Positions 6,701 through 52,079 of a stretch of DNA of 64,000 bases are shown piece after piece; positions within the stretch are counted from its first letter, which is position 1, and each line of letters begins with the position of its first letter. The position numbers and the translations under genes are program-made. The DNA is from Stropharia rugosoannulata (taxonomy: Eukaryota > Basidiomycota > Agaricomycetes > Agaricales > Strophariaceae): NCBI GenBank assembly GCA_028532985.1, contig JANCIK010000007.1:1922001-1986000 (forward strand). Reading direction: 5' to 3'. Under the pieces are notes generated by a model. It was not told the DNA's origin, did no database searches, and saw only the letters and a program-made list of their open reading frames with translations.

Positions 6701-6919
6701 TGTAAGGATGCTATCCTTACATCATGACATCACATGCCACTCTCACATAAGTAGCCGGAGCCACGCCTAGTCAAGACCGCTTTCCTTCTGCTTTTCCTGT
6801 CGTCTGTTCTCCTGTTGTAGCCACTCCGAATCCACACGCGCATTCAGTTTCTTTTTGTGTGTTTCCGTGAGTCTTCCTTCCATCCAAACTCCAGTGTTTT
6901 CCGCCTCGGCGGTTTTCCA
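6701..6919 (+). repeat. 5' LTR of the chromovirus
   Basis: 219 bp, identical to the 3' LTR. It opens with a perfect inverted repeat: TGTAAGGAT, a three-base loop, then ATCCTTACA. It closes with a second small hairpin (CCGCC-TC-GGCGG) just before the TTTTCCA terminus. Confidence 0.95.
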
Positions 6920-7220
6920 CTTTTTTTGAAACTTTGTGCGCGCCGTGTGATCTGTCCGTACAGTGGTACATCTCGCCTTTAACAAAATCGCCCAGTCCAA
7001 AGTCATTCCTTTTCTTCTTACCTCTCTTCTCCATGTTGTCCACACATTTTGAGTCCGTAAAAGTGCCTGAAAATACTAAGTTTAATGCAGTTTTGGGTGC
7101 TACTTTGGGAAGCGTTGCCACGTCTCTTCATGCTCCGGTTAAATTGGGCATTGCTTCGGTTCATTCGGTTGCTTCGTTATTGGGTGTTGCCTCGGCGGTT
7201 TCCAAGGGTGCTCCTCGTCA

Positions 7221-10200
7221 TTGCCTCGTATTATTGAAGATGAATTATTGGTGCCTCGGGTTCAAGATGCCTTTCTGTCTCGCAGATCTACACGTCGTCA
7301 CCCTATTGGACCACTCTTGGATGGCTCCACGTTACCTCCCGCACGTCTCTCCTCTCGCCGTCGCACCTCAGCAGTCGCCTTGCCTTTGTCGGAGTCTGCA
7401 TCACTGTCTTCTGTGTCTGTGTCGACTGCTCAGCCTCTGTTGTTATCGGAGCCACATGCAATGCCTGTTGCTACAGAAAACTCTTCAGACAAACACTCGG
7501 ATGATAATGATTACGGTAAAATAAAGAGCACCATCATGTCCATTGACTCTTTGTCCTCCTCGTTGTCTGGTGATAGCAGTGTTCCTTTTGCTCCTCTGCA
7601 TTTTAATGTTCAGCCAAACTATCTACACCACCACTTGTGGAAGGCAAATCTCCGTGCTACTCCGGATGCTCAGCCATTTGGCGTTATTCCTATCTTGTTG
7701 GACAATGGCTCTGGTTACGTTTTAATCCGAGCTTCTCTCGCTGATAACATGAACCTGTCTCGCACACCTTTGGACGAACCATATCACGCTTCAGGTGCCT
7801 GGGATAGTGTGGGCGAACAGGTTTTTACAGAAACAGTAACCTTGTTCATATCCTCCTCCTGTGATTCTTTTGCCTTGAAACCCGTCACTGCCCTTGTTGC
7901 AGATAGCTTGTCCTCGCCTATGATTCTTGGCCGGCCGGTTCTTGTGCACAACAATCTGATCGATGCTGGAGAACTTAACACAGTTATTTGCGGAAACTCG
8001 GGATGGGACCTCATTAATGAGAAGACGGCTCGTATTCCACACATTTCACTAAAAAAGCGTTTTCGGGGTGTTCCTCGTCCTGTCATTGCACGCCGTCAGC
8101 AAGCCCGAGATATCATGGCTGCTCGTCGCTGCCTCATGAATGAACTCAAGTGGAGAATCAAACCTCGTCGCTTGCATATTGAAAATAGCTCGGCCTCGAA
8201 ACCTGAACAAGTTGATGTTCCCATTATCGCCTCAATTGCATCTCGTATCGAACAACTTTCAAGTTTACAGATATTACACGATAAGGAACAGGAGATCAAG
8301 GCATACTATAAAGATATATTTGAACCAATTCCCCATGCAAATCTACTTCCTATGACGGAAACAGCACGCATTCGCTTAAAGGATGTTAACAAGAAGATTG
8401 CCACGAGAAATTATAGCTGCCCTCGGAAATTCAATGACCTTTTTCGTGAGCTCATTCAGCAGAAATTGGATCAAGGTTTCATTCGTCCCTCTAATAGTGA
8501 GCACATATCTCCCTCATTCCTTGTTCCCAAGCCAGGAGACAAATCAAAAATGCGTTGGGTTTGCGATTATCGCTCCCTGAATGATAACTCGGTGCCAGAT
8601 CAGTTTCCACTTCCCCGTGTTGATGACATCTTGCGCGACTGTGCCAAGGGCAAAATCTGGGGTAAGATTGATATGACAGAAGCTTTCTTTCAGACGAAGA
8701 TGGATCCGGACTCCATCAAATACACGGCAATCTCTACTCCCTTTGGTGCTTATGAATGGACTGTAATGCCTATGGGTTTTCGTAATTCCCCTGCTATTCA
8801 ACAACGGCGCCTCACCAATGCTCTGCGACACTTAATTGGCAAGATCTGCCATGTCTATTTGGATGACATTATTATCTGGTCAAATTCTCTCGAGGAGCAC
8901 ATGGTAAATGTGCAGCATGTCCTTGATGCACTTCGCCTCAATCGACTGTATTGTAACGCCTCGAAGACTAAACTTTTCTGCTATGAAGTCGAATTTCTCG
9001 GTCACAAAATTTCTCAAGAGGGCATTGAACCTTGCCACAAGAAAGTCTCAAAGATTCTAGAATGGCCAGTTCCTCGGTCATCAAAGGAAGTTCGACAGTT
9101 CCTGGGTCTCGTTCGATATTTGAATGCCTTTCTGCCCCATCTTGCTGCACAATCTCGCGTCCTTGATGAGCTCACGACAAAGGAATCTGAGAAGAAGTTT
9201 CCGGGGTGGTCAGAACGTTACCAGCATGCATTTGATGCTATCAAACAGATTGTTACCTCTCGTGATTGTTTGACTACTATTGACTACGACGACTCGACCA
9301 AGAAGATATTCTTGACCACAGATGCCAGTGACACTTGCTCAGGAGCGGTTCTCTCTTTTGGTCCTTCATGGCAGACTGCTCGCCCTGTGGCTTTCGACTC
9401 CATGACATTCAAAGGTCCGGAATTGAACTATCCCACCCATGAAAAGGAGTTATTGGCCATTATTCGCGCACTACGTCGTTGGAAGGTTGACTTACTCGGA
9501 GCTGAGTTTTCTGTCTATACAGACCACAAGACCTTGCTAAACTTTCAGCATCAGTCCTCCTTGTCACGACGCCAATCTCGCTGGATGGAGGAACTTTGCA
9601 TTTTTGATTGCCGCTTTGTATACCTGAAGGGGTCTGCTAATTCGGTTGCCGATGCACTCTCACGTTACCCACACACAGTTGAATCTCTTAAGGTTGCAGA
9701 GGCCGCTGCAAGTCACCCATATGGCTATATTGACGATGAGCCTGTGACTATTGCGTCAGTTAATTTAATCTCAGCGGAGACTGTCTGGCCTTCAGTCGTT
9801 GCACTCACGGATCGCCCTCAGACGGACTCATCCAGCTCTCCTCAACTCACTCAAGAAGTTATTACTGCCCTTCGTTCGGCCTACGCTCTCGATCCATGGT
9901 GTCAAAAGCTCTTAGTCGCCCAACGTGGAATGCCAATTCTAACTGTACGTAATGGGCTATGGTTCATCGGTGACAGGCTTGTTGTTCCTGAAAATTGTGG
10001 GGTACGTGAATATGTCTTCCGCATGGCTCATGATAATCTAGGGCATTTCGGTTTTGCGAAGACATATGACTCTATCAGACGCTCCTACTTCTGGCCCAAT
10101 ATGCGCACTCAACTTGAGAATGCTTATGTTCCCGGGTGTGACGAATGTCAACGAAACAAATCATCAACAACTACTCGCTCGGGTCCCCTGCATCCACTTC

Positions 10201-11351
10201 CTATTCCAGACAATCGTCTTGAAGATGTTGCCATGGATTTTATTGGTCCACTTCCTGAAGACGATGGGTCCGACTGCATTCTTTCCATCACTGACCGTTT
10301 AGGTGCAGACCTCCGCATTATTGCATGTCGAATGGATATCACAGCCGAAGATCTTGCTTTGATTTTCTTTGATCAATGGTATTGCGAGAATGGATTACCT
10401 TTAAACATGGTCTGTGATAGGGATAAGTTATTCTTGTCACGATTTTGGAAAGCATTAACTGCACTGATTGGTGTTCAGGTTAATATGTCGTCAGCCTTCC
10501 ATCCTCAATCGGACGGCGCCAGCGAAAGGTCTAACAAGACAATTAACCAGTCAATCCGTTTTCATGTTGAACGCAATCAACGGGGCTGGAAACGAGCACT
10601 GCCGCGCATACGTTTCCACATTATGAACTCTAAGAATGCCTCAACTGGATACACTGGTTTTGAACTTCGCCTTGGACGTCCTGCACGTGTAATACCACCC
10701 CTGGTTCATCGGGAAGGTGCTACTCATACTACTGACACATCTGCTAGACAGGTCATCGAGCGCCTCCACACTGATACTCAAGATGCCCGTGACAATCTGC
10801 TCCTCGCAAAAATCTCGCAGGCATATCATGCAAATGCTTCACGTCGCGATGACCAACAGTGGCTTTCGGGTGACCTCGTGATGCTTGACACGTCCAACCG
10901 TCATAAACGTCTTCGACATCCTACAGATCAACGTGCAGCTAAGTTTATGCCTCGTTGGGAGGGTCCATATACTATCGTTTCATTTTTTGCAGATAATTCG
11001 ACTGTGTTACTGAAATTACCTTCTTCCGCTTCGTCTAATGCAACCACTCGTAACCCAGAAGACCTTACTTACGAAGTCTTCCACACATCCCTGATCAAAC
11101 GCTACACTCCTAATGACGACTATCTTTTCCCTAACCGTGCGCGACCAACTCCGCAGACAGAAATGGTTGATGGAGAAGAAGAACATTTCGTCGACCGCAT
11201 TATCGATGAACGTAAAGTGCGGGGTCGTACTAAATACCTCGTCAGATGGAAAGACGAAGGTCCAGAGGCCGACCTTTGGTTGGAAGAAGACAAATTGCAG
11301 GACAATGTCGCTCTCGACAACTGGGAAGCTCTTGCCAGTACACGTTCTTGA
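7221..11351 (+). CDS. Retrotransposon Pol polyprotein: protease, reverse transcriptase, RNase H, integrase, chromodomain
   Basis: An uninterrupted 1376-residue ORF. A retropepsin-like region lies near residues 155-240 (ILLDNGSG, then MILGRPVLVHNN). The reverse transcriptase spans roughly 390-600 with the catalytic YLDD near 548. RNase H follows with TTDASDTCSGAV and a TDHKTLLNF motif. Integrase has an HHCC zinc domain (HDNLGH...CDECQRNK), then a DDE core (MDFIGPLP, CDRDK, GASERSNK). The C-terminus near 1310-1370 is a chromodomain (VDRIIDERKVRG, YLVRWKDEG, LWLEEDKL), a module that in chromoviruses directs integration to marked chromatin. The retropepsin reads DNGS where DSGA/DTGA is usual. The first ~130 residues are Ser-rich and match no gag domain I recognise. 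The intact frame fits a young element. Confidence 0.93.
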   Translation: MPRIIEDELLVPRVQDAFLSRRSTRRHPIGPLLDGSTLPPARLSSRRRTSAVALPLSESASLSSVSVSTAQPLLLSEPHAMPVATENSSDKHSDDNDYGKIKSTIMSIDSLSSSLSGDSSVPFAPLHFNVQPNYLHHHLWKANLRATPDAQPFGVIPILLDNGSGYVLIRASLADNMNLSRTPLDEPYHASGAWDSVGEQVFTETVTLFISSSCDSFALKPVTALVADSLSSPMILGRPVLVHNNLIDAGELNTVICGNSGWDLINEKTARIPHISLKKRFRGVPRPVIARRQQARDIMAARRCLMNELKWRIKPRRLHIENSSASKPEQVDVPIIASIASRIEQLSSLQILHDKEQEIKAYYKDIFEPIPHANLLPMTETARIRLKDVNKKIATRNYSCPRKFNDLFRELIQQKLDQGFIRPSNSEHISPSFLVPKPGDKSKMRWVCDYRSLNDNSVPDQFPLPRVDDILRDCAKGKIWGKIDMTEAFFQTKMDPDSIKYTAISTPFGAYEWTVMPMGFRNSPAIQQRRLTNALRHLIGKICHVYLDDIIIWSNSLEEHMVNVQHVLDALRLNRLYCNASKTKLFCYEVEFLGHKISQEGIEPCHKKVSKILEWPVPRSSKEVRQFLGLVRYLNAFLPHLAAQSRVLDELTTKESEKKFPGWSERYQHAFDAIKQIVTSRDCLTTIDYDDSTKKIFLTTDASDTCSGAVLSFGPSWQTARPVAFDSMTFKGPELNYPTHEKELLAIIRALRRWKVDLLGAEFSVYTDHKTLLNFQHQSSLSRRQSRWMEELCIFDCRFVYLKGSANSVADALSRYPHTVESLKVAEAAASHPYGYIDDEPVTIASVNLISAETVWPSVVALTDRPQTDSSSSPQLTQEVITALRSAYALDPWCQKLLVAQRGMPILTVRNGLWFIGDRLVVPENCGVREYVFRMAHDNLGHFGFAKTYDSIRRSYFWPNMRTQLENAYVPGCDECQRNKSSTTTRSGPLHPLPIPDNRLEDVAMDFIGPLPEDDGSDCILSITDRLGADLRIIACRMDITAEDLALIFFDQWYCENGLPLNMVCDRDKLFLSRFWKALTALIGVQVNMSSAFHPQSDGASERSNKTINQSIRFHVERNQRGWKRALPRIRFHIMNSKNASTGYTGFELRLGRPARVIPPLVHREGATHTTDTSARQVIERLHTDTQDARDNLLLAKISQAYHANASRRDDQQWLSGDLVMLDTSNRHKRLRHPTDQRAAKFMPRWEGPYTIVSFFADNSTVLLKLPSSASSNATTRNPEDLTYEVFHTSLIKRYTPNDDYLFPNRARPTPQTEMVDGEEEHFVDRIIDERKVRGRTKYLVRWKDEGPEADLWLEEDKLQDNVALDNWEALASTRS

Positions 11352-11562
11352 GTTTTCGTATGTTTTCAATTTTCTTCCTTCACGTACCTCTTACTTTCAC
11401 TTCTGCCTGCGGTAGCTTCCCCACAGGGGTTTGACGCACCCGTGCACGGATTTTTCTTTTGTCGCGTGTGACCCTTTTATCTCAGTTTAATTTTCTATCT
11501 CTACTAACTGCTCTATCTACATACGCTCTTCCCTCGCCCTTCTTTTTCTTGGGGGGGAGCAC

Positions 11563-11781
11563 TGTAAGGATGCTATCCTTACATCATGACATCACATGCC
11601 ACTCTCACATAAGTAGCCGGAGCCACGCCTAGTCAAGACCGCTTTCCTTCTGCTTTTCCTGTCGTCTGTTCTCCTGTTGTAGCCACTCCGAATCCACACG
11701 CGCATTCAGTTTCTTTTTGTGTGTTTCCGTGAGTCTTCCTTCCATCCAAACTCCAGTGTTTTCCGCCTCGGCGGTTTTCCA
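11563..11781 (+). repeat. 3' LTR of the chromovirus
   Basis: 219 bp, base-for-base identical to the 5' LTR by visual comparison. It is followed by TATAT, matching the sequence in front of the 5' LTR. Confidence 0.95.
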
Positions 11782-13020: not shown

Positions 13021-15740
13021 ATGTCCCAAGAGAAGGTCCTCAACGAAAAGACTGACGCCGACTCGTCCACCCATGACTCGGCGTCGGACTTCGACATCTA
13101 CTCGTATCACGAAGCCAATGCTGGTCGTCTCATTATTGACCCTGAGTGCGTCCCATCCCATACCTCTACCGCGTAATATTGCTGAATACCGGTTCCCCGC
13201 TACTCAGAGAGGCAAAGATTGAACTGGGTGAAGCGGTGGCCGCGAAGCTGAAGTTAACGAAAGATGGCAAGACCGTCCTCTGGCCCCAACCCACCGACTC
13301 GGAACTCGACCCGCAGAACTGGTCCAGTCGTCGCAAGAATTTGCTGCTCATCATCATGACCCTTGCCGCCATCGTACCCGATTTTGACTCCGGCATTGGT
13401 GCGTCTATTCCTGAGCTAGAGTCGCTAATCTGACTTCGCCCGTTCCGCGGTGCCACAGGTATCGCCGGTATCTTCGCCCTCGCCAACCAGTTCAACACCA
13501 CCACGGGCGAGATTAACAACCTCACGTCGAAGTACGTGTATCTTTCCATAATTCTAATTTAATCAGCTGACATATCCTCCGCCCACAGTTGGAGTATTTT
13601 CCTGCTGGGTATGTGTATCGCGCGCCGCCTCGGCGTATTTACGGCTGCCGTTGTGATTGATCAGTACTGATGGGTGTCGCGCCTTTTAGGATGGGGAGGT
13701 CTGTTTGCCGTTATGCTCATCAGACGTGTCGGTCGGCTGCCAGTTCTATTTTGGTCGCAGGTGTGTACATTTGTTTTTTGCGCTCCCCAAATCCCTTTCG
13801 ACCTGGCGTGCGTGAGGGGCAATGCAGGGGCCGCATTTCTGTTTAGATTGGCACTAATTTTATTTTTGCACGGCACAGCTTCTCGCCCTCGGATTCCTCG
13901 TAGGCTGCACATTCGCGCCGACATTGAAGACCTTCACAGGTAACGTTACGATGTCGAAATGATAGGCGCGATTTGCTGACTGACGTGCGGTTCTTAGCCA
14001 TGCGCTGCCTGACTGCCTTCTTCGGGTGAGTGTCTCGGCGACTGATGTACACAGTAACCGTCTAACCGCCTGCGCATCGAAGGACCGCACCGCAGGTTAC
14101 CGTACGTCTTCTCCCTCCTCGAACGCGCCGCAGCGTAACTCAACTCGTTCTAGGGGCTCTATGTTGTCTCCGATCTATTTCCCTTCCATCTCCAAGCGCG
14201 GAAGGTATGTCATTCAGTGTTCTCGCTCTAATTGACTGGCTTGATCCTTACGACATTCTCGGCGTCTCCGTCTGTCACATTCAATTAACTTCGATCCGTA
14301 AACGCCATGCACACCTCCGCAGATCAACATCTGGACTATGGGTTTCCTCATTTCGCCGTTCCTGTCCCCCTTCGCGTTCGGTTTCCTTGTCGCACGAACA
14401 ACATGGCGATGGGCGTACGGCATTGGGTCTCTCTACGGCCTCGTCGTGCTTTTGTTGATTATTTTCTTCATGGAGGAGACGTGAATTTTATACCTTTTAA
14501 ATGATATAACGCGCGTTCTAATTTGATATGTAGAATGTACGACCGCACAGTGAAACCCATCCCCACTGCTGGAACTACTGGCCTGCGTTACCGCATCGAG
14601 ACTCTCCTCGGCATCACTGGGTGGCGCATGCAGAAGTACCGCATCCCATGGAGCGAATCTATCCTCAGCCCTTTTAAGATTGTATGGCGTCCGCATCTCC
14701 TTATGATATTGGTCTTTGAGGTATAGTCTACCTTCTTCTGTCTGTTTGTCACTTACTTATAATTATAAGGCCATGGTCTTTGGATTCAGTATTGGTATTA
14801 ATGTATGTAAATTTCTGAGCAACTACTATTGGTAGGTTTACTTAATTTTATACCAGGTTACCAACGCCGTTTTCCTCGGTTCTCCACCACCTCTCGGCTT
14901 CGGTTTCAGCCCGTTCGGTATTGCAGGAGGCTACGGTACGCCTATCGTAAGTTTACCAATGCGTTGCGTTGGTTATCATCAGAAGGCACATAATTTAATC
15001 TATCTCGCAGGTATCAGTTATCCTTGGTGAGCTCGTCGGTAGGTACACCAACGACTTTATCATGCGCTCGAGTATTCGCCGCAACAAGGGTGTGTTCGAG
15101 GCTGAGTCTCGTCTCTGGTAAGTAACCAAAGAGTATCTTTTTCGAATTGAAATATTCAAGCTATGCTACAGGGCATGCTACATTGCAATCCCCTTGTACA
15201 TCTGCGGCTTCGTCACGCTCGGCGCGTCAATCGAGAAGCACCTCAGCGTCGGCGCGCTCGTCATGGGCTGGGGAATCGCCGAGTTCTCAGTCATGATCAA
15301 CACTGTCGCTGTGTACGCCTATTGCAATGACGCGTTCCCGAAGCACCAAGGAGAAATCAGTGCTCTGATTAATCTTGCGCGTACACTCGGAGGTCTGTCT
15401 CAATCTTATTCAGTTATCAGAAGAAGGCAATTAACGGCCATTTGTGAATATATCAGGCTTCGCGGTGGCCTACTTCCAGGTGCCCTGGGCGCTCAAGCAT
15501 GGTGCCATCCAGACGTTTGGCGTTGAGGCAGCGTGAGTGCCTGATCTGCTTTCTTGTGCTGGATACTGTACCCTGAGCACATTTGGCTTATTAGGATTGT
15601 CACGGGTTTATTCCTACTTGTCGTACCATTTTTGCAGTTTAAGGGACGGGATCTACGGGTGCGTGATTTTTTTCCGTATGTGCGTTCTTCGGTGGCTTAC
15701 ACAGAGCTTGGGAACTCAGGCGAAATATTCTGCTCATTAA
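13021..15740 (+). CDS. Major facilitator superfamily transporter (DHA1-like)
   Basis: A multi-exon gene starting MSQEKVLNEKTDADSS. The cytosolic N-terminus ends in the fungal MFS signature DPQNWSSRRKN, after which transmembrane helices begin (LLLIIMTLAAIVPDF). Further helices are spread over about a dozen short exons: FLLGWGGLFAVMLIRRVGRL (loop with the MFS G-x-x-x-D/R-x-x-G-R/x pattern), LLALGFLVGC, MRCLTAFFG, WRWAYGIGSLYGLV and LYICGFVTLGASI, with LINLARTLGGFAVAYFQVPW near the end. The protein is a polytopic plasma-membrane proton-coupled carrier by family; substrate cannot be told. The 3' end has two readings. Splicing out the segment beginning GTGCGTG near 15659 gives a short tail ending at 15740 (QAKYSAH); reading through gives a stop at 15775. 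The spliced form is closer to family length. Confidence 0.82.
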
Positions 15741-16795
15741 ATCTCGTGTCAATATCGTGCCTGGCAGAAGTGTAAGAAGGGTTTTTGTTGAGTGAGGCTA
15801 TTATGTAGGCGAGACGCATGCGATGATAATTTTGGCCATGAAAGTGAAGACCGAGAGACGATCAAAGTGAGGACACGAAAACTCGGATTACACGACGACT
15901 TCCATTTCCCCCCTGCTTACATTAGTTTTATCCCACTGTTGTATTTCATGTTGATGTTTTTTTTGGAATGATAATATTAATGCTTCAATGTCTCTTCCCA
16001 CTCCACAGCTGTGATTGACAGTTTTGAATTTGGACAAGGCCTCTCATCACTTTATATTCTATAGCCTGCTTTTGATACATGGACTGTATTTGAGCTCACG
16101 CTGATCGTTTTGCGGTATTCCGGGCCCGAGGAGCACAAGGATCGATCTAGGTTGTAGTAGCATGGAGTTGTACTTCAATCTCCTTCGTTGTCACTGGTCT
16201 CCATAGAGAAGTTTGAATGTAGAAACAAAAGGCATAGATATTACAACGTTCAATTACCATACTGCCTGGCACAGCTACATGTCAAATAAAATATCATCTG
16301 TGGTGGGAACGCTAGTTTAGTATGTTCTGAATCCCTCTTGTGATTAGTTCCACAAGGCCCCGATATGTCAGAAGTTTTCCTATGCCGGAATAGATTTCGT
16401 TGTTCTGAATACTGAATTTATATGCCAAGTACATGATGCGAAGACTACTACTGGGTAGGCTTGCGGATACACACCATAGTACTATTGCTTTCCGACCCCT
16501 TTCGGTAATTTTACATCGAACGGAGGTAATTCAAGATAAACAAGGTGCGCAGCTGAGTATGCTTATTTGCGCAGTCTGTCACTCGAGGCCCGACAAACAA
16601 TTTGCCTACATATCGACTGACATAGACAGCCCAGCTATAATTAAAAGTATTTCTAAAATATCGCACATTCACAAGGCCCGAAAAGCCCACTCCTCAATAT
16701 ATGACACGCTGAGAGGGCGCAGAAACTCTATGAGCCCCTAGCCCCAGATCATGCACATGAGTAACTGTCCCTCAGGTATTGCGATACCTGGACAA
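15741..16795. other. Intergenic between convergent MFS and snurportin genes
   Basis: AT-rich, no supported gene. A 102-codon open frame at 16433-16741 has no recognisable content. Confidence 0.5.
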
Positions 16796-18611
16796 TTACA
16801 GTTCCATAGTCACGTCCGCAACCCCACTCTCACACGAGACATTAGTGGCGGCCGAATCGCCGCCAAGAGCAACAAGGTGCACGCCTGACATGACGTTTGG
16901 TGTCCTGGCAATCCTCTGCTTTACAAGCCTGCGAGATCCGGACAACAGAAAGGTGACATGAGAAAAGCGACATTATTAGAGAACGCAGATATTGGCGCAC
17001 CTGTGGAAAAGATCTAGGGGCCCCTCGTCCTGCCCCGTGGGTGTGGTACGCGGACCGGGAGTCCCGTCTACGGGCTCGTATCCCTGGATGGGCACCCAAC
17101 TGCTCAAAGGGCTTGTACCCGGCTCGTAACTCGCCTCAGCGACGTACAGCAGCAGGCCGTCTGGATACACCAGCGTGTTGGTGCTGACATTAGCCGGGGC
17201 AGACAGTACCTCGACTGACGGAGGCGTAGACTCTACTTCCATGCCTCCGCTCTCAGCCGACGCGCTTGCCTGCGACGGTTGAAAGGGCGCTGGGAGAATG
17301 ACAGGCACCTCACGTACGCTTCGCGCTGCCGGGATAACGTGTGTGTCCAGTGCGATCAGAGTAGTGCAGGCATGGTACGGAACGGGAATAAATGTCGTGG
17401 GATATGGGAAGGCATAGCGCGTCTGCTGTTTAGGCGACGGCGTGGGTTCAGCTGTGCCGGGCGGGAGTGCGGATGGTGCGACAAAGTGAAAAGTAGGCGG
17501 ATAAAGTTGAGTGAGCTCTGCCAGACGCGTATCACGCCACCAAAAACTGAAGACAGATGTTCAGAATACGAATGTACATATTATCTGGAGGAATATGCGC
17601 ACCGGAAACCTGCTTCACAATCTGCGATATCTTGGCCTTTCCAACGGACAACATCTAACACATGTAGGATGCCATTCTGCCTCCAGTTGTCGTCCAATAT
17701 ACAGTCCAACACTGTCAACGGTGGCAGGGGAGAAGGGAAACGCGGTAAAAGTGATTTGCCCAACAGCCTCGAACGCAACGTCGTATTTGGAACTAAATAT
17801 GAATTAGGTTTATGCACATATATCGGAAGAGACAGTGACATACCCACTCCCGCTACTCCTGCTGACTGTTGAGTGACTACCAAACATCGTTTTCCTTTGG
17901 GGACTGGTGCGACCGCCACCCAGCCATGTTCCAGGTCACTGGGAAGTCCATCATCGCCTCCGACTGCGTCCCAGATAGCATCCCCGTTCATTTCTAGGAG
18001 CTCGGCATACATGCACTTATCCGCCCACTGACTACTCCCTGCTTTATATTTGCTGCTGCTGGATGCCTTGTTAGCCTCTGAACGTCGTTTGTGCGAGTTC
18101 TTCCCTCCTCTTTTCCGAGTTTTCTTCGGTTCAGGAGCTTCAGTTGACATCTCAGAAGCCAAAGAGGCCTCGAGTTGTTCCTCCCCTTCATGAATAAATT
18201 GCTGCGCCTCTGTCTGAGGCTGGATTTCCATGGTGTCGTTGACATCTCCTGTTTGCAGCAAAGACACATATGCAGCAATAGAAGTGGGTGCTAATCTTGA
18301 CTCGGGGTCATCCTCTTCATCTTCAGAATGTTCCGCAAGACTCAAGCCAGCGAAGTCGAGCTGCCGTAATGAATCGATCTTGCTAGCTCTGCGCTGCGAT
18401 TCGACAATGAGCGCTCTCCTCTGCGTGGTCGAGTAAGCCAAAGCTTACGCGTTTCTGCTCTTCCAGAGCCTGAAGATGAGTTAGAGACGTACTTATGTCA
18501 GAAGGAGCACTGTCTACATACCTTGGCTCTTCTGGCCTCTTGAGAGATGAGCTTGTCGCGTATGGTGGTAGGAGGGAGCTTGTAACCCAGTTTTCTATTC
18601 GTAGCGGACAT
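16796..18611 (-). CDS. SNUPN: Snurportin-1, m3G-cap snRNA import adaptor
   Basis: Multi-exon gene. The start at 18611 gives MSATNRKLGYKLPPTTIRDK followed after an intron by an arginine-rich importin-beta-binding segment (RRALIVESQRRASKID, LRQLDFAGLSL). An acidic stretch and a low-complexity basic linker follow. Then comes the cap-binding fold with GKRCLVVTQQSAGVAG, LLPRFPSPLPPLTVLDCI and HVLDVVRWKGQDIADCEAGF, and the continuation in the exon at about 17000-17310. The family carries trimethylguanosine-capped U snRNPs into the nucleus with importin beta. The last exon is probably spliced from near 17010 to 16935, giving FHRLVKQRIARTP and a stop at 16796-16798; unspliced it would stop at 16976. 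The first intron is ambiguous: see findings. Its 5' 346 bp plus upstream DNA are duplicated at 23779-24308. Confidence 0.85.
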
Positions 18612-18795
18612 GACGATGACACAATTCTCGTTAATTCATATCCAGGCCGATTTCAATATACTTTCAAAGAACCAGCAGACGAGTGACAGCAAGACAGAAA
18701 CTAGTAAGTAGTAGTAGTAAATAAGTGAACGAACCTTGACCTAAGCGAACCATCAGGCCCATGTGAGAACCATGACATAATAAATTTATGGGCCA
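18266..18795. repeat. 530-bp direct repeat, copy 1 (snurportin 5' end plus divergent promoter)
   Basis: Matches 23779-24308 in the same orientation over 530 bp, with a constant offset of 5513 and only about five visible substitutions (for example CTTCTGGCC versus CTTCTTGCC, TCGTTAATTCATATCC versus TCATTAATTCATAGCC). It contains the first exons of snurportin and the upstream promoter. Its right edge (ATGGGCCA) is followed directly by GTTGTCGCA; the same nonamer lies about 18 bp beyond the edge of copy 2. Confidence 0.95.
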
Positions 18796-18812
18796 GTTGT
18801 CGCAGTCGGGCA

Positions 18813-21400
18813 ATGCCCGAAGGCATAGCCATATGTAAAAAAAAATTGTCCATCGTCCCCTTGCCACATACACTCAGCATCACAAACACTCCACGCAAAT
18901 CTCTTAGTACAGCAGAGAACTGCCCCGTAACGAAGCTTCGGCCCGAAATTGGCGAAGCAATGGCGAGCGAATTCTTAACATGTCCTATCAACAACTTTCT
19001 CGAACACTATATGCCGTTTGCACCTTCGGACGGCGCCGTCCAGAAGTTTATCCGTGAAAATCTTCCAACTACGGCAGGCCCAGACTCTTTGCTCTTCTTT
19101 GACGAAGAACATTGCCTCAGATTCCGTCAATACACACGTGCTCCGACTGCGGGCAAAGATCTCGAGAATGCCTATTACAAGGGGTTTGAGACCATCGCCG
19201 AGAAAATCCAAAGTTATCGTCCAGGGAATTTGGGCGCAACGGAGTACTACCACTGTCCTAACGTCAGCCTTGCGAGTGATATAGCTGGGTGCAATAACAG
19301 GACCGACGCGTGCTTCAAATTTCGGTCCGCCGGGAAGACCGGGGGCAATACACTCCATGTTACCTCCATTGCTGTAACGATTGAACAGAAGATACATCCG
19401 AAGCACAGACACATGGTATGCTTTGTGAATGGTGATATATGCAAGTTTTGGTCTGACGTCCCTTTGTGCAGAATCAATTACAGCTGCTATCCTTGAACTC
19501 CCATATCATGAACGACGATCCGCGTCGAATGACTATTCAGGGAGTGCGTACAACAATTTTCAGGCTCTATTCGTCCGTGCTATACATGTCGTTTATTTTA
19601 TAGATAACTGTGGAATCCGACGGCGTTACCATCTGGTTGCATACACGCTCTCATTCGGTGACTTCAGATACATTTAGTTTCATACAGGTGAGGCGCATCT
19701 GCCCTAGAAATTAGTTTTAATATTAATGCGACATAGAACCCAGAACTTCTGATCAAAGTATTCATGGCATTTTTATACGCAACTGAAGAGGAGTTGGGAC
19801 TCGACCCAATGATCAAAATGAATTCAGACCATTCATACACGTATGAGATTCCTCAGTTCGACTCCCAGAGCCGCTTTTTTCGCACAAAGCAATATTTATC
19901 TTTCTACCGTTCTAACAACATAACTGGCCACATGTCTCGCGTCTGGTCGGTCAAGGAAGTGGATGACAGTAGCGACCGAACATTTGTTCTTAAGGATGTA
20001 TGGCTGGATTATAGGTCAAGCACAGAAAAACAGATCCAGGAAGCAATTTTCCAAGATATTACATCATTTTGGAACGCACCTGCGCAACAACCCGAGGAAC
20101 TTCAACGCCTTTGGAAGAAGCACCAAATGATCGTTGAAAACGGCGGCTTCAAAAGATTCTTCCTCAATATCATCACCGATTGCACGGGGCAGACGTCAAA
20201 AAATGTTAGTCCTCTGGGGAAGAGGTCCTGGGCTTTACTCAAAGATATGAAGAAAATGCGTGATGGTCCACCCCAATCCAATTCGCCCGCAGTGTCTGCA
20301 GCTCGTCTTGCCGTACCAAGGCAAGAAACAAATACACCTCCTCGATCACAACAAACGCGCTCATGGAAAAAATATTATGCCGAGCGTGCATTCACGCCTA
20401 GGAAGCAATACCGGGTTGTGTACGACGAGGTTTGTACCCCTTTTAGTGAGCTGAATACAATGGGCGATGTGATAACTGCACTGTCGGCGGCCATCACACG
20501 TAAGTTCCCTTTTCTTTCCGATATTTAACTGAGGATCTAAACGGAACTTGATAGCTCTTGAACTTCTGCTGGGTGCGGGATGGATACATCGAGATATCAG
20601 TTGCGGAAATGTCTTGATTCATAGACGAGACGGTCAGTTCCAAGTTAAGTTAGGCGACCTCGAGTACGCGAAGAAATTTCCTAGTTGTGCACATTCGGCG
20701 AAGGATCCTAAGACGGTAAGCTTGTTGTATCCGCTCTGACTACGCTTCTCATATACCGCATATATAGGGGACACCTTACTACATGGCGCACGAGCTCTTG
20801 CAAGAGTGCCACCTTTTTAATTATCGATTAATACCTAAAAGCGTGAAATCTTCCCTCCTGTTTCCTCTTACTGCATACAGTGAGGGTCTCAAAACCGTTC
20901 TGCATAGCCCTCAACACGATCTTGAGTCTCTTTGGTGGATGGGTCTGCGAGCTGCGACCGCTCGCAGTCAAAAAAAAGAAACCCGAATTTGGGCCAAAGA
21001 CATATTTGGAGGATCCCTTGATCCGCCCAAGTCTCGAGTGAAACTGTTTACTGAAGATCCCTGGATACCCGAGCACCTGGTTGATAGATCTGTGCAGGAT
21101 ATCTCAACTCACCTGCATAGTCTCAGGGCCCAGTTAATCAGTCACTATGTGGAACGAGAGATGAAGTTAGATATGGCGAAGACCCACTCCTACGTCGAAA
21201 TTTTTGAAGAGTTCTGCAACGCCTTTGCTTCATTGGAAAGTACCCGGGACGTCTGGGACAAATATTCACTAGAGGCCAACCACAAAGCAGACTCGCATAA
21301 TCTCCCCCTTTTACCTGCCGAAGATAGTATAATTGAAACGGGGAAGCGGAGTCGAGATCCAGCTTCTCAGAGCGAGTTGGATGTCGGTGAAGGGCCGTGA
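18813..21400 (+). CDS. FunK1 fungal-type protein kinase, copy 1
   Basis: Multi-exon gene of the FunK1 class, a eukaryotic-like kinase family expanded in Agaricomycetes with mostly unknown substrates. N-terminal landmarks are TPRKSLSTAE, then LTCPINNFLEHYMPFAPSDG. A middle region holds LHVTSIAVTIEQK, MNDDPRRMTIQG, KVFMAFLYATEEELG and FYRSNNITGHMSRVW. The catalytic part has FTPRKQYRVVYDEV, GWIHRDISCGNVL (the HRD loop, intact), KLGDLEYAKK in place of a DFG motif as in relatives, and an APE-like GTPYYMAHELL, then HDLESLWWM. The open frame from the ATG at 18813 begins only 18 bp after the 530-bp repeat; alternatively the TPR exon starts after an acceptor near 18877, as in copies 2 and 3, with a first exon further upstream. 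The motifs look catalytically competent. Confidence 0.85.
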
Positions 21401-22057
21401 AAGAGGTCGATCTGGGAAGCGTTCTCATGTCTGACTTTCCTCTGACTCTATCAGCAATGGGTTGTAAACATTTAGTACTTTAGTATTCGGTGCATGAACG
21501 TTGAACACTGGGCACAGCTACGATTTAACAAATCTGGATGCACAATGTTTAATTTCCAGGTAGTTACGCTGCAGGTGGACAAGAGTTGCCTAGCGGTTAT
21601 GCGTGTAGAGCTAGTGTAAATAAATAGTTGTGTTTAGGCAGGAGGCCGGAAGCTTAAGATTATTGAAATTCTGTCTATGCAACATGTACACATCTCATTA
21701 TATCGCATTACATACATGTGTGATCGATGATGCATTGATGCCTCACCTGGACACCCAGACTTCGAAGTAGCTTGTGCTGTTTGTTTTCCTCTTGGTGCAT
21801 ACTTGACAATCCGATTCACAGGATAGTTCGAAAGAACTTAAGGACAAGCAACAAGCATTCCTGGAGCATCCTATTTACGGAAATGCGCGAGTGACACATT
21901 GGACCTAGTAGTAGGCACGACAAAAACAACAACAATTGCTAATTCAAAGCTTGACCGTTGCTTTGGCCCTCGAGCTTAAAGGGCCACCGAGGGCTACCGG
22001 TATCTTCTTCATTGCTCTCACCTCTCCTGCATCTGTCTCAAACACTCGGTACATGAT
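21401..22057. other. Intergenic between FunK1 copy 1 and the coiled-coil gene
   Basis: No gene recognised; likely FunK1 3' UTR and the promoter of the next gene. Confidence 0.5.
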
Positions 22058-23423
22058 ATGGCTTCTGGCGCCCTTGCATGTACCTCTCAAGGGAGCAGTA
22101 GCCCTGTAACGCGCCCCGGAGACACCGCCTCTATTCACAGTGAGTGGCAACGACCTACTTGCCTTGTCGAGTCAAGAACACATACTAAGACTTTGTGGTA
22201 GCGCAACCAGCTCCCACTGGTACTAGATCCAGCGGGCCACATGGCGGCTCGAGCCTACCAAGCATTGCGGATACTCAATCGATTGAACAAACAGTATCCA
22301 TGCTTTCTGAGCTGCATCGCACCAACAGTGCCCTCGACCTCAATGTCGCTGAGCTCCTGAAGCGAGCTAAGGCTATAGAAGCCAAGGCAGAGCGTCTCAA
22401 GCAAGCGTGGTTGATGGAACGCTCCCGTCGAGAGCGCGCACAAACCTGGTTCACGAACTTCCGAGAGAGCGCGCCGGTACTTGATTTCAGCAAGATATTT
22501 CTTCGCGGCAGGACTGTGCTCGTGGTACACGACGATGAGAATGGCCGGTTTGTTGAAGAGCTGGATGCAGTAACGATGGGCAAGCCCGAATATGCTGATT
22601 TGGTGCATTGGCACTTGTACGATGCCGAATCTGATGACGAAGGAGAAGAAGGCTCAAAGTAAGTATTGATCTGGACGTGCTCATATCTGTGTTCACTCAC
22701 TGCTACTATCCTGTCAGTAATACCGCGGGTGCGCTATCAGGTGTTCAAGGACCAGCAAACCCGTCTCCCAATGAACCTGCCAAAACGGCAACAGATATTG
22801 CACGAGAGAATGACACCTTGAGCAATGCGAAGCCCCATCTTGCTGAGAAGCGTATGCGCCCCCACTTATCCTATGGTCAGGCAGCCAGAGGGCAGTCGAG
22901 GGGTCAGAAGAGAACTGCGGCACAGATAGACAATCTCATATTGTCCGCTGAAACAAGGCGCATTCGTCGCAGAGTGAAGGTGCAACAAGAAGGTAGCAAG
23001 AAGAGTACGGCGACACAGCAAGAAAAAGGGCAAGAGTTACCAGGGAGTACTTCTGCACATCGCACGGCCGCGGCGAATAACCTCAATGGCCAGTGCTCGC
23101 CACCTCCTGAAGCTGCGCCAAAGGACAGTAGTAAAACTACGCCTTCGCAGTCTTCTGTGAACGAAGACGGCTTTGTCAGTCGTGCGAGGCAGATCTTCCG
23201 GATGTTTCCCTTCACTCGGCCAGACCCTCTCGCAAGCCCCCCTCCGGGTGGATGGCCCAGACAAGGCGATAATGGGCTGATACAGTCAGGACTGGGTCGT
23301 ATGCAGACTCCTACAGCGTTAGAGTGGGGGTTGATGCAGGCTGAGCCCCCTTCTGCTCTTCAAAATGAGCAACCACGCGCACGGCCTGCCCGCCGACAAG
23401 ATATTTCATTCCTCGTTGACTGA
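22058..23423 (+). CDS. Coiled-coil hypothetical protein
   Basis: Three exons. The ATG at 22058 gives MASGALACTSQGSSSPVTRP; the intron starting GTGAGT near 22140 and ending TAG near 22201 preserves the frame into an exon with a clear heptad-rich helix (LSELHRTNSALDLNVAELLK, then AKAIEAKAERLKQAWLMERS). A second intron begins GTAAGT at about 22661 and ends CAG near 22717. The C-terminal half is low complexity, basic (RRIRRRVKVQQ) and Pro/Ser/Gln-rich and ends RRQDISFLVD. No family is recognised. The acidic end of exon 2 (ESDDEGEEG) and the basic patch could fit a nuclear protein, but that is inference. The gene lies inside the interval bounded by the 530-bp direct repeats. Confidence 0.65.
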
Positions 23424-23778
23424 GTATATGCGCTTTATGGTATCAATGGGCATTCTACCATATTTTTAACACTCACCTTAATGACATTTATTTCTTCTTC
23501 GCATTGCATGACAAGGTCGAAAAAGATAGTGAAAAGTTTGCAATCAGTAGCGGATGGAAGCTGGGTGGGTAGGAAATCTATGGCCCGCTGTTTGCACGTA
23601 CGTGTCGACAGCCCGTCATTATCGATCAAGCTCAAGCAGCTTTACCTTGGCCAAACCTAAGCTGGACCAAAATTTCCAATACTTTCAAAACTAATAAACT
23701 CTCCGGTGGCAGAATTCACGGGCTTAACTAATGGTCGAGTCGAAAATTCTTGGATGAGACCTTGGATGTGAAACCGAA
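23424..23778. other. Intergenic, right edge of the repeat-bounded insert
   Basis: No gene recognised. It ends where the second 530-bp repeat starts. Confidence 0.5.
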
Positions 23779-24124
23779 ACATATGCAGCAATAGAAGTGG
23801 GTGCTAATCTTGACTCGGGGTCATCCTCTTCATCTTCAGAATGTTCCGCAAGACTCAAGCCAGCGAAGTCGAGCTGCCGTAATGAATCGATCTTGCTAGC
23901 TCTGCGCTGCGATTCGACAATGAGCGCTCTCCTCTGCGTGGTCGAGTAAGCCAAAGCTTACGCGTTTCTGCTCTTCCAGAGCCTGAAGATGAGTTAGAGA
24001 CGTACTTATGTCAGAAGGAGCACTGTCTACATACCTTGGCTCTTCTTGCCTCTTGAGAGATGAGCTTGTCGCGTATGGTGGTAGGAGGGAGCTTGTAACC
24101 CAGTTTTCTATTCGTAGCGGACAT
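23724..24124 (-). pseudogene. Truncated snurportin-1 5' fragment
   Basis: Within the second 530-bp repeat the start codon (24124), the importin-beta-binding exons and the acidic segment of snurportin are reproduced almost exactly (RRALIVESQRRASKID, LAEHSEDEEDDPESRL). At the repeat edge near 23779 homology stops, and the frame runs into unrelated sequence with a stop at 23724. It lacks the whole cap-binding domain, so it cannot be a functional snurportin. If expressed it would yield a short importin-beta-binding peptide. It is best explained as a by-product of the segmental duplication. Confidence 0.9.
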
Positions 24125-24308
24125 GACGATGACACAATTCTCATTAATTCATAGCCAGGCCGATTCCAATATACTTTCAAAGAACCAGCAGACGAGTGAC
24201 AGCAAGACAGAAACTAGTAAGTAGTACTAGTAAATAAGTGAACGAACCTTGACCTAAGCGAACCATCAGGCCCATGTGAGAACCATGACATAATAAATTT
24301 ATGGGCCA
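23779..24308. repeat. 530-bp direct repeat, copy 2 (upstream of CIAO1)
   Basis: Same length and orientation as 18266-18795, with about five visible substitutions. Its right end covers the ATG at 24301 and stops 62 bp before the likely CIAO1 start. Confidence 0.95.
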
Positions 24309-24369
24309 CTACAAGGTCACTGAGGGTTGTCGCACCTCCTTCGCTTCCCTACCTCAATATCCTATAATT

Positions 24370-25757
24370 ATGAACGTAGATCTTTCGCATACCATAGAGC
24401 CTGTAGCGGAGCTCCCAGGTAAGAACAATTTGTTATGTCAGACTCAGGGCTTATCTGTGCTTGCGATCTCTACAGGACACGAAGATCGCGCATGGCATGT
24501 TTCCTGGAATCCAACGAAGCCACTTCTGGCCTCATGTTCCGCAGATAAGACTGTCAGGATATACTCCTACACCTGCATGCCCTCACAGAATGATACTGCC
24601 AACAAATCGCGAAGATATACCTTTAAGACCCTTACGAGCATTCCGACTGGACATGCGAAGACTGTGCGATCCGTAGCCTGGGCTCCCTCTGGAGAGACTT
24701 TAGCAACGGCTTCATTTGACTCTAATATCGGAATATGGGAACGTGAAAAGGATGAAGGCGGCGACGAGTCTGGTGCAGGGGCGGACGATTGGGAGTGCAT
24801 CAGTACGCTGGAAGGCCATGAAACAGAATGCAAAAGTGTGGCGTATTCTTCAAACGGCAATCTCCTGGCAAGCTGCAGCAGGGACAAGACTGTTTGGATA
24901 TGGGAAGGTGCGTAAATGCTTGCCTGATATGTTCTTCAGAACGTGATAATAAACAGTTCATCCCGATGGCGATTTTGAAACTATATCTGTTTTAATGGAA
25001 CATACACAGGATGTCAAATACGTTGCTTGGCATCCAACTGAGGAGGTCAGTAATGAGCTCATGACGCGGACTTACCTGCTGTTTTACTCATGCGCTTCTA
25101 TCCAGATACTTGCCTCAGCGTCTTACGATGATACTATCAAGCTCTACATTGAAGATCCTTCAGACGACTGGTTCTGCTTTTCTACCCTCTCTGGGCATTC
25201 ATCTACTGTGTGGTCTCTGGCGTGGTCACCTGCATTCGACGTCTCACACGACTCACATTCTCATCTGGTAACCAAGAGCTACCTCGCATCCGCCAGTGAC
25301 GACAATACCGTGCGTATCTGGAAGCGCGTCGCCGAACATAAGTGGGAATGCGTCCTTGTTCTGGGTGGTCACCAGCGGACAGTATATAGCGTGAGCTGGG
25401 GGAGAGGAGACCTGTCCAATGCTTCAAAATCGGACGCCAGAGGCACATACCTCGGCTGGTTGGCGAGTGCAGGAGGCGACGGAAAAATTCTCATATGGGA
25501 ACTTTGGGTACGCACACATAATGTCAATTTTTGAGTTACAACTGGTTTTAACTCAACAGCAGGAACCCACTGCTGAGAAGGAAGCAGCCAAATCTGTACC
25601 ACCCTCCCATAAATTGATCGCCTCCCTTGATTCTGCGCATGGTGTCCACGACGTCAATTCTGTAGTATGGTGTCCTCGCAGCGGATTCGAAAATTTGCTC
25701 GCGACGACTGGGGACGATGGGCTAACACGGGTATGGGAGGTAAAAAGTGCTACATAA
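24370..25757 (+). CDS. CIAO1: Cytosolic iron-sulfur assembly WD40 protein
   Basis: WD40 propeller protein matching Cia1/CIAO1, a subunit of the CIA targeting complex that delivers Fe-S clusters to cytosolic and nuclear apoproteins. The start at 24370 gives MNVDLSHTIEPVAELPG; after a short intron the first repeat reads GHEDRAWHVSWNP. Later blades include LASCSADKTVRIY, TGHAKTVRSVAWAP, LATASFDSNIGIWER, EGHETECKSVAYS, LASCSRDKTVWIWE, HTQDVKYVAWHP, LASASYDDTIKLY, GHSSTVWSLAWSP, LASASDDNTVRIWKR, GHQRTVYSVSWG and LATTGDDGLTRVWEV, consistent with the seven-blade propeller. Introns lie near 24420-24476, 24907-24957, 25046-25106 and 25508-25560. An in-frame ATG at 24301 would add 23 residues; the inner ATG fits the family better. 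It is convergent with the GH51 gene, about 200 bp apart. Confidence 0.9.
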
Positions 25758-25962
25758 CCAAATAAAACAGGCTCGACGTAGTGCTGTGGTTCCCTAGAGT
25801 GAGCCACAACCTTGAACTCACGTATATCATTTGTCACTGAATAGATACAGGCTTTAGAAAGTCAAACAAGGTCACTGATTTATTTTGTGCAATCTGTGCA
25901 AGTACATGGCAGTTAATTCAATTTTGAAACCCGATTCACTGATACTTTCAAATTTAAATCAT

Positions 25963-28900
25963 TTAGAGGCACTGTGTATGTGGCAATCATCTAGTCAGTT
26001 CATTTTTCAAAGGGGGGAGAGGAGGGCAGCCCGACCTGGGAGTAATAATTGTTCGAGAATGTGCATGTCAGTCCACTCGCGCAGGTTGTCGGGCCCGTGT
26101 ATCCAGTGCTACATATCCCGCGCAACGGTGTCAGACCCACGATCCATAGCGCTCCCAGAAACCACACCACTCACCCGCCACACTGTCCATAGTGGCTTTG
26201 CACCGCGCCGCCCGCAGTTGTCGTCGGCGTCGCGCTCGTGCTCGTCCCCGCCGCTGTCGTGGACGCCGTGCCCGTCAACGACAGCGTGATGACACTGACA
26301 CTCACTGCGGGCGCATTGTAGTTGAATGTCGTACCCACAGTGATTGTGCTAGTGACGGGTGCGATGAGCGTCGGGTTCGACGGCGTGTTGCTAGCGGTCG
26401 CGGCGCCAGTAAGGAGCTGCAGCGAGGCGCTCGCAGCGACGTTGAAGGGCAGGTCGAAGGTCATTGCTGCTGTGGAACTTGCCGTGTTCGAGATCTGCCA
26501 TTGATAGTGCGAGCAATGATTAATGAGTATTGGGACCCAACGACCCCCGATCGGTTATGTACCTTGATTATAATCTGGTTCGCCGCAGTGTTGCGAACGA
26601 CGCTCCAGAAGAGAGTGCCAGTTGAAGAGGGGAGAGTGCTCGGGATGTAGCTGTCACCGCGGTTTACGCTGAAAAGCTGGAAAATGATAATCAGAAACGT
26701 GCAGTTTACTAAAGTCTTGAGCCGCACCAACCTTCTGGACGTAGTAACTAGTGGAGAGGTAGACTGAGCCGGCACTAAATGCGACGTGTGATGAGAAATG
26801 TACAGCGAAACTACAAAAAAGTGCATACTCAAAAGCAAGCAAGTTTGGGGTCTAGGCGATGCTAGTCAGTTACATCTGGCATTGCAGGTACGGTAGAAAT
26901 CACATACCCATTGGTTGTTGGTGATATGCTAGAACATACAATTTACTCAACGTCTAAGATAAAAAGAACGAGAACTTACCCCGAGCAGGGGAGCGTATGA
27001 AGCAGCGAACACAATGTCACTGTTGCGCTCCAATCCGGTCATGAAGGCGGCTTCTCCAGCAGAACCTAAGAAAATAAAAATATTCAATATGAATACGATG
27101 AACTCATACAACTAGTGGCTCACCCTGCATTATAGGATACGTGAATCTCCCCTCAGCAGGAGTGCCGTAAAGGTTGCTAGAGTTTGTCGAAATGGAAGCG
27201 TATTCGCCCTGTATATCTAAGTGTCAGTATATCCAGGAAGTGAAAGGCTAGGCGGTGCAGCTCTAAGCGTACCTCGAAGTATTTGGTACCATCGCGCTAG
27301 GCCATTTGAGCAAATACAGAAACTGAAGCGTCAGAAAGAACACTTACAGCGAAGGTGTCATAGTAGAAAGAGTTTTGTGCAAACCAGGCTATATATCGGA
27401 TCAGGATTTTCTCTCTCTGGTGTACTCAACAATGCGCTCACTTGGAGATTGATACACGTGGACATCGTACTCCGTTGGCTTGGGAGTGAGAACAGGGTTG
27501 TTGACGTAGCTCGTAGCGATGAATTCTGTTCCAAGTGAGTAATATAAACAGTATGTCAAATGCCAAGTACTTACGGATATTCGGGAACGCTGCTTTAAGA
27601 GCGTCGGCGAACGCAGTCCATCGGTAGGTATAACTATGACATTGTTTAACTCAGATACTGCTCAAAAAGACAGGACTGACGTGGTGGATGCGAAGAAATC
27701 TTCGTTTCCTATTTCAACGTAGTTGAGGGTGAACGGGTCCGGATGTCCCAAGGAGGATCGCATTGCAGCTATTTCAAGGTTCGGGAACAGGTTACGTTAG
27801 GCCCATTAAAGACATGATGTCTGTTAAAGTCCTGACCTGCAGCGCTTTGCGAAGGATCCCCGATTACGAAGTTAATCTGCATCAATCGTTCAGCTGATAA
27901 TAAAATGGGCCATGAACAGATATTTAGTATCCATACCTGATCAATTGCTTGCTGAATGTAAGGTTGAAGATCAGCCTGTGCGACACTTGTCCCCCCAAGA
28001 GTGTATCCTAGCCGATAACTGATCAGAAGGAAAATAACTGGACAGTGTGACTGAGTAAAATACCTGACCAGACGGCCATGATGGGTTGCATGTTTAGGTC
28101 CTCGCACCAAGTAAGATATTCGAATAGCCCAAGGCCGCTGTCAGATGGTTCAGCCCACAGATAGAACTCTTGTAGTACTGCCCACATACTCAGTGTTCAC
28201 ATATCCCCAGTCACCAGATCTGCCTGTAGATTTTGTTAGAATGTTGTTTCAATGACAAGGCTAACAGCTTACCAGGCCTGTCCAGGAGTGGTCCAACCTA
28301 CATGATAGGTAGTCAGCAATTGACAGACAGTCTCAGAGAACTTGCATAGCGCCATGCTTACTGTAGCGTTCCATTGCCATCTGGTGGCGGTCGTCTGACC
28401 TTCGAGGTTGTTACCTCCTGGGAGTCGGAAGAATGATGGGGCTGCCCCTTGCAAGGCCTATACAAATTCGAAGCTTCTCTTGAGTAAAAGTAAATAGCTG
28501 TATCCCTTACTAAGACTCACGGTAGCAATGTCTGCGCGCATACCATTCGCCCTGTTCTTGAATGTAGGAGGGAACAGGGAGAACATCGCAAAGTTGATGG
28601 TCTGGCCAGAAGCTGCAGCTCCATCGACGGTGACAGTGAACAAGTTGGTGAGCGCGCTGGCAGAGCTTGTCGGCGTGAATGTCACGGAGACCTGCTTCCA
28701 GGTCGTCTGGCTTCCGGAAAGAGTAGCAGTAGCCGAAGCAAACACCTGTCCGGAGGATGACTGAAGGCCGATGACCGCGTTCCCACTAAAAGAAGAGCTA
28801 GTTGGGAATCTGTAATAGAATGAAGCAGTGTATGTCGACCCCGCAGCAACCTTGATGCCTTAGCAACGGCAGAGAAACAGTTAGCTTAAGGTTGAGTAAA

Positions 28901-51258: not shown

Positions 51259-52079
51259 ATCGGCTTGTATTCGATGAGCTTATTGGCCTACGTGCAGAGT
51301 GTTTAACGGTCACAAAGTAATGACTGTGAAGACGTTACTTGCCAGAGGGGATGGGAAGGCGGTTTGTGGGAGGCGTTGGGCAATGTATTAGCAATGCGAT
51401 TTTAATATATGGCGAATGGCCGGTGAGGTCGATTAGTGAACTTTATGTAAATGCGAATTGACAGATTGGCCCTGCTTATTATAAGCGTGGCAATCGACTT
51501 CATATGAGCCCTGTGACTTGCTTCTCAGAGGCCAGCTTCTAAGCATCGTCCAATTTGAAGTGGTAGTACCGCACGGCAGACACGAATGTCAAAAGCTTGA
51601 CTACGATTCTGTGGATGTCGATGCGAGCTCGGGGAGTAGAGACTGCTCATGTTTCGTTTAACATAGGTCAGAATTCTAAACTTATCGAATTCACACATTA
51701 ATGACATTTCTGATAAGTATCACATTATTACATGGTATATATCCTTCCTGGCAAAACGTCAGAAAACGCCAAAAGTAGCCAAAATCATACAAAGGGAAAC
51801 CGTCACACCAGCACCAACCCATTAATGATTATTCGATCTTCTCCTCATGCCAAAATCTCCCGCGGTGTTGGTGCAGATATTTCAACGAGCTAATGGAAAG
51901 TGCGAATGTATACAGCCGACTTTACCAATGTTAGGTGGGAAACGTTGAGAGCAGTGACTACTGACCAGTGAAGATTGAATCAGCAATAAAATTGATCGAT
52001 TGAAGTATTTTACAGTATAATACATATGCATTGCGTTCCTAGTCCACTTCATCGCCAGAAGAATTCTCATGCGCTCACC
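51259..52079. other. Spacer between the tandem MYND copies
   Basis: The stretch 51290-51850 is recognisably homologous to 53360-53880 (shared GTGAAGACGTTACTTG, AATGTCAAAAGCTTGACTAC, CATTAATGA near the ends), showing that the duplicated unit of about 2.05 kb includes the upstream region. No gene is seen in it. Confidence 0.7.

Follow-up and report, generated by a model that had tools for sequence, protein, structure and literature searches.

FunK1 kinases are specific to fungi and of unknown function; the FunK1 passages of one paper describe lineage-specific duplication, enrichment in non-syntenic regions and an active-site stretch in which serine replaces lysine (PMC3203195), and the passage on Fusarium in another places them among the least understood of the expanded kinase families (PMC6001611). 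Judged by titles and the starts of abstracts, none of the papers listed in our literature searches deals with the means by which FunK1 copies spread. Known transposons leave target-site duplications of a few bases. FoSTeS/MMBIR events bring in a segment from a site tens of kilobases distant, keep its orientation, duplicate a short local stretch and show microhomology at the joints. Finally, in aromatase excess syndrome a coding region is reportedly placed behind the promoter of another gene. The rearrangement in that syndrome is presented as cryptic in the part of PMC3272822 that concerns us here.

The locus described here, where a segment with a FunK1 gene (hereafter X) lies between a snurportin and a CIAO1 gene, can be compared with each of these systems. 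Like a transposon with its target-site duplication, X is flanked by direct copies of its target; unlike transposons, the copies measure 530 bp, far above a few bases, and the X exons scanned hold no transposition gene. As in FoSTeS/MMBIR, the likely source region of X is tens of kilobases away, in the same orientation, and the insertion comes with a local duplication, although the counterpart of the joint microhomology is here a 3-bp overlap at one of the two joints. The position of the FunK1 coding region behind the promoter region of another gene, a putative promoter capture, recalls aromatase excess syndrome, with the difference that here the promoter region is duplicated and both original genes keep theirs. 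The locus also agrees with the lineage-specific FunK1 expansion, where copies multiply by duplication and are enriched in non-syntenic places. The passages cited concern ascomycetes and do not describe junctions (PMC3203195, PMC6001611), whereas this locus allows both its junctions and a decayed relative of the source to be read.

The duplicated block and the segment it encloses

We analysed a window of 64,000 nucleotides, corresponding to bases 1,922,001-1,986,000 of contig C7, and searched the genome it belongs to (48 Mb, 20 contigs). Both flanking genes named in the initial annotation were confirmed. The snurportin gene (16976..18611, minus strand, approximate exon limits, start codon at 18611) carries the snurportin m3G-cap domain PF21974 in 17581-18441 with 37.7 bits against a cut-off of 27, and a further match in 16976-17308 on the same strand, at 17.6 bits, falls under the cut-off. 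The CIAO1 gene (24370..25757, plus strand) has WD40 repeats according to Pfam and is similar to named CIAO1/Cia1 proteins; its start at 24370 was set by homology, as MNVDLSHTIEPVAELPG resembles MDVDLPYKIEPVADLPG of P0013. Its first part found 814 proteins, and among the 120 listed the top match is an 84% identical fragment and the closest named protein, from Phlegmacium glaucopus, shows 60% identity. Those of the listed names that we recognised belong to Agaricomycetes, which makes this very probably the genome of a mushroom-type basidiomycete.

Between these genes lie the two copies of the block, which align without gaps over 530 bp with five substitutions (0.94%), in agreement with the direct repeats and the roughly five differences reported initially. 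Copy 1 (18266..18795) comprises the first 346 bp of snurportin and 184 bp of intergenic sequence facing the FunK1 gene, and copy 2 (23779..24308) a truncated snurportin 5' part and the CIAO1 upstream region, with its end 61 bp from the CIAO1 start. Four of the substitutions fall in the 184-bp intergenic part (2.2%) and one in the 346-bp snurportin part (copy 1 positions 18534, 18630, 18641, 18653 and 18714). In a scan of 15000-28000 for repeats of at least 40 nt, this was the one direct-repeat family, with a spacing of 5513, and no inverted repeat of that length was found; in the genome search with window positions 16800-26000 as query, the block had no further place among the best candidates scored, a list that also gave no separate entry to the match between the two copies. 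The outer side of each copy runs on into its native neighbour gene. We discarded a reading of the repeat as LTRs because it consists of snurportin and intergenic host sequence with no further genomic place listed; the X exons scanned against Pfam also contain no retroelement family. Copy 1 may extend by 9 bp (GTTGTCGCA, 18796-18804), a word that the CIAO1 side holds too, beyond a gap of 17 bp; an arrangement as good was given by 40 of 200,000 random window starts, and the recurrence is possibly a trace of repair.

As 530 bp of the shared control region were apparently duplicated, neither housekeeping gene would have been broken by the insertion, and both have an intact upstream region. On the minus strand at 23720-24124, copy 2 retains the snurportin start, exon 1 and part of exon 2 and then passes into X in antisense. 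Read by eye, this stretch could encode a putative shortened snurportin that ends in a few new residues.

The interval between the blocks, X itself (18796..23778, taken on the plus strand), measures 4983 bp, exactly as first annotated, and it does contain a FunK1 kinase gene, as was also claimed. This gene (18813..21400, plus strand, with a possible start at 18813) has an open spliced frame with exons 18878-19415, 19472-19540/19543, 19604-19687, 19737-20499, 20555-20715 and 20768-21400, whose limits were set by comparison with paralogues. One exon matches PF17667 in 19764-20504 (plus strand) with 43.4 bits against a cut-off of 24.1, and the genome-wide profile search matched two places in the gene. 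The frame carries the motif HRDISCGN, in which, by our own mapping of the position, serine stands in place of lysine as in the FunK1 active site of the passage in PMC3203195. Its closest public protein, best of 7997 word-sharing candidates, is from Pleurotus djamor and 36% identical, and nine proteins matched at E <=0.001 among the 7997 candidates sharing most words. A second gene follows (22058..23423, plus strand; exons 22058-22139, 22202-22658 and 22718-23423, drawn by eye), labelled coiled-coil in the initial annotation; neither of the two exons scanned reached the cut-off of any Pfam family. No transposase or other transposition-gene family was found by Pfam in the X exons scanned.

A decayed relative in the nearby FunK1 cluster

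Searched with window positions 16800-26000, the genome gave a list of five matches, one being the locus itself, two short and weak, and the other two neighbouring pieces of a single relative, U, at C7:1995454-1995952 (96%) and C7:1995946-1997972 (95%). U lies 52 kb downstream of X on the same contig and strand, within the FunK1-dense stretch C7:1.98-2.06 Mb, a cluster whose near end is about 37 kb beyond CIAO1. The part of X that aligns with it is 20997..23781 on the plus strand (U being C7:1995461-1997972), with 62 substitutions in 2498 columns (2.5%) and indels of 10, 241, 7, 13, 23 and 6 bp, a list that excludes a 1-bp gap at the left edge. Among the best candidates of the search, U is the sole close relative of the right 2.8 kb of X, and the left 2.2 kb had no close match and no donor there; nor did this search yield a full donor for X. 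Given this unmatched left part, U would at best be what remains of the donor; otherwise X would have come from a different allele or from a copy since lost. U is decayed, its FunK1 gene being reduced to the last part and its second gene frameshifted by the 13-bp gap, and the second gene is open in X. The last exon of that gene has two genomic matches, itself and the U copy. Between X and U the second gene shows 11 synonymous and 15 non-synonymous changes (pN/pS 0.43), numbers too small to support a statement on selection.

Several other repeats were seen in this part of the contig. Window positions 6701-11781 hold identical 219-bp direct repeats around a 1376-codon open frame and read like a young LTR element, with what appears by eye to be a Ty3/gypsy-type polyprotein with a chromodomain-like end. 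At C7:2010431-2018656, identical 197-bp direct repeats (2011925-2012121 and 2017145-2017341) accompany frames that look Ty1/copia-like by eye; this element splits a FunK1 gene whose halves match the continuous paralogue C7:1985816-1988783. Identical 619-bp direct repeats around open frames labelled gag- and pol-like by eye indicate a young LTR element inside the FunK1 cluster at C7:2018824-2026463. Window positions 50000-53867 contain a tandem pair of stretches of about 1.85 kb, 75% alike and 209 bp apart.

At the joint between X and copy 2, the homology with U runs to 23781, unbroken identity with the block starts at 23779, and U then diverges; the stop of the U homology at this boundary is what a copy ending there predicts. 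The overlap, ACA at 23779..23781, is 3 bp long and belongs to the one joint with source sequence to compare, and as evidence of microhomology it is weak. With U 52 kb away and its homology halting at the junction of X with copy 2, the initial proposal that snurportin, block and CIAO1 were once contiguous, and that the FunK1 segment arrived with a duplication of the block, is probably correct, on the basis of one genome. The claim that the event was recent is weakened and is not established: the blocks differ by 0.94%, less than the 2.5% plus indels between X and U (Fisher P = 0.033), and their intergenic part by 2.2%. A single event is compatible with these figures if the block was slowed by constraint or conversion, or if the donor allele had already diverged.

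Based on these observations, we consider it likely that X stems from the local FunK1 cluster by dispersed segmental duplication and that its insertion duplicated 530 bp of the target, by a mechanism of the kind outlined below. A piece of about 5 kb from the cluster would have been copied, with its orientation kept, into the snurportin/CIAO1 intergenic region, where 530 bp of the target were duplicated. Under a first route, repair or replication would have left the block, entered the CIAO1 leader, changed over to the cluster as template and copied about 5 kb, then returned to a position inside snurportin and gone on through the second block copy into CIAO1. Under a second, a tandem duplication of about 52 kb, with the block and the end of U as its limits, would have preceded the deletion of whatever then separated the CIAO1 leader from the start of FunK1, with the same product. 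For the right 2.8 kb of X, U provides the nearby same-strand source that template switching calls for. Of the order of events and mechanisms that we infer, template switching with two switches appears the most likely, and neither it nor tandem duplication with deletion needs a transposon. Both are preferred over transposition because the exons scanned have no transposition gene, and because X has no inverted ends of at least 40 nt and a single partial relative listed. The initial annotation had also remarked that no FunK1 mobilisation route was known to be described; our data do not establish one, and with a likely source cluster nearby and oriented the same way, none is needed.

Other FunK1 loci and competing explanations

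A different possibility, which we regard as unlikely and yet the best placed of the competing explanations, is that FunK1 segments have a way of spreading of their own: they would insert recurrently, leaving direct duplications of 0.4-0.8 kb and sparing the host gene, perhaps as DNA circles into which some target sequence had been taken up and which integrated by one crossover. Its bearing was assessed at 11 loci, namely the snurportin/CIAO1 locus and ten FunK1 loci outside the C7:1.98-2.06 Mb cluster, in a genome where the FunK1 profile search gave 94 PF17667 matches, counted exon by exon. For five regions 20-30 kb each were examined (C10:1.20, C9:0.93, C13:0.63 with two FunK1 genes, C3:0.80 and C5:1.55 Mb), and for five further loci about 1.5 kb beyond the match (C10:1.51, C14:0.16, C3:0.65, C6:1.33 and C6:1.30 Mb).

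The main support comes from C10:1200081-1205325, where a FunK1 gene on the minus strand is bracketed by two direct repeats, 809 and 820 bp long and 90.4% identical. Both represent the 3' part of a gene of the UVB_sens_prot (RUS-like) family; the right copy has an open frame, the left one a frameshift. A direct repeat of about 375 bp (77%) at the C14 locus also brackets a FunK1 gene, but is a member of a dispersed family, other pieces of which are found on C5, C1, C8 and C2. No long host-gene direct repeat was present in the 20-30 kb examined at each of C9:0.93, C13:0.63, C3:0.80 and C5:1.55 Mb, the C13 region showing a 186-bp direct repeat (73%) between its two FunK1 genes, and no nearby host-gene repeat was found within about 1.5 kb of the match at C10:1.51, C3:0.65, C6:1.33 and C6:1.30 Mb. 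The suggestion that other FunK1 genes with duplicated flanks might be found in the genome was thus borne out in part: a long host-gene repeat clearly wraps FunK1 at 2 of the 11 loci (our own included), in an uncontrolled sample chosen for FunK1, and C14 is a weaker, dispersed-repeat case; the remaining loci gave nothing of the kind. Across the 264 kb examined there were 14 direct pairs of at least 150 bp no more than 10 kb apart, which we read as seven FunK1-FunK1 pairs, three LTR pairs, one tandem (75%), the C13 pair, and the two formed by this locus and C10.

The FunK1 genes of X and C10 are not close (a single tblastn match of 24 residues, E = 0.30), and the words common to the ends of the two cassettes are 9- to 14-mers at E 0.8 or worse, hence at chance level; both points also speak against a dedicated route. 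As donor of the C10 cassette, the best candidate is a partial match of 83-84% at C4:1054008-1054963, which falls short of both junctions. Beside the end of that cassette, about 340 bp (C10:1204051-1204391) have five relatives of 72-75% on C6, C9 (two), C8 and C13, and would by this pattern be a dispersed repeat. A 3-kb FunK1 segment common to C14:155833-158884 and C7:1638692-1641706 (93%) is apparently an inter-contig duplication, and two FunK1 copies on C6, about 29 kb apart, are 82% alike; from such comparisons FunK1 segments appear to duplicate often in this genome. X itself looks like an ordinary gene duplication, with one other FunK1 locus similarly wrapped.

Even less probable is the reverse order, in which X was already in place and a copy of the block was added on its right afterwards, or U was copied from X. 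X is indeed the more complete of the two, with its FunK1 and second genes open and U decayed, but completeness gives no direction, and the end of the U homology at the boundary with copy 2 would have to be a coincidence; an ancestral X with U as its copy is unlikely because that homology stops at this joint. An assembly error from merged haplotypes, which the 99% likeness of the blocks might suggest as it would for two alleles, is highly improbable, as merging two snurportin-block-CIAO1 alleles cannot place X between them, the joint with copy 2 is base-sharp and coincides with the end of the U homology, and contig C7 is 3.5 Mb long.

Upstream region of the FunK1 gene and implications

A copy inserted from the local cluster, the reading that we favor, would also account for the beginning of the X FunK1 gene. 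The left edge of X is 82 bp before the FunK1 exon at 18878, and paralogues have further exons upstream; by eye, four of the six paralogues compared (five in the C7 cluster and one on C5) have a first exon bearing an ATG. The X gene lacks this exon and adjoins the CIAO1-facing half of block copy 1. Its own upstream sequence being limited to 82 bp, any promoter that it has comes from block copy 1, and we propose a putative promoter capture in which the gene would be transcribed from the borrowed promoter of that copy. An in-frame ATG is available at 18813; another ATG, inside the block at 18788, begins a frame of 16 codons, which runs across this start and would count against its efficient use.

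Three points are therefore added to the initial description of the locus, namely the decayed copy U at a distance of 52 kb, an upstream region that FunK1 has lost and apparently replaced by a borrowed one, and a second, similar FunK1 locus. An RNA-seq set and a few PCRs could test both the birth of this FunK1 gene and the takeover of a housekeeping promoter, and the second wrapped FunK1 gene, on C10, makes a genome-wide census worthwhile. If, against our expectation, insertion is recurrent and duplicates 0.5-0.8 kb of target, so that housekeeping genes survive and a new FunK1 gene may borrow a promoter, such a route would offer a mechanism for FunK1 expansions that are large and non-syntenic. 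Several lineages have seen this large fungal kinase family expand, and at this locus one copy can be read together with its joints, its new upstream region and a decayed relative of its source.
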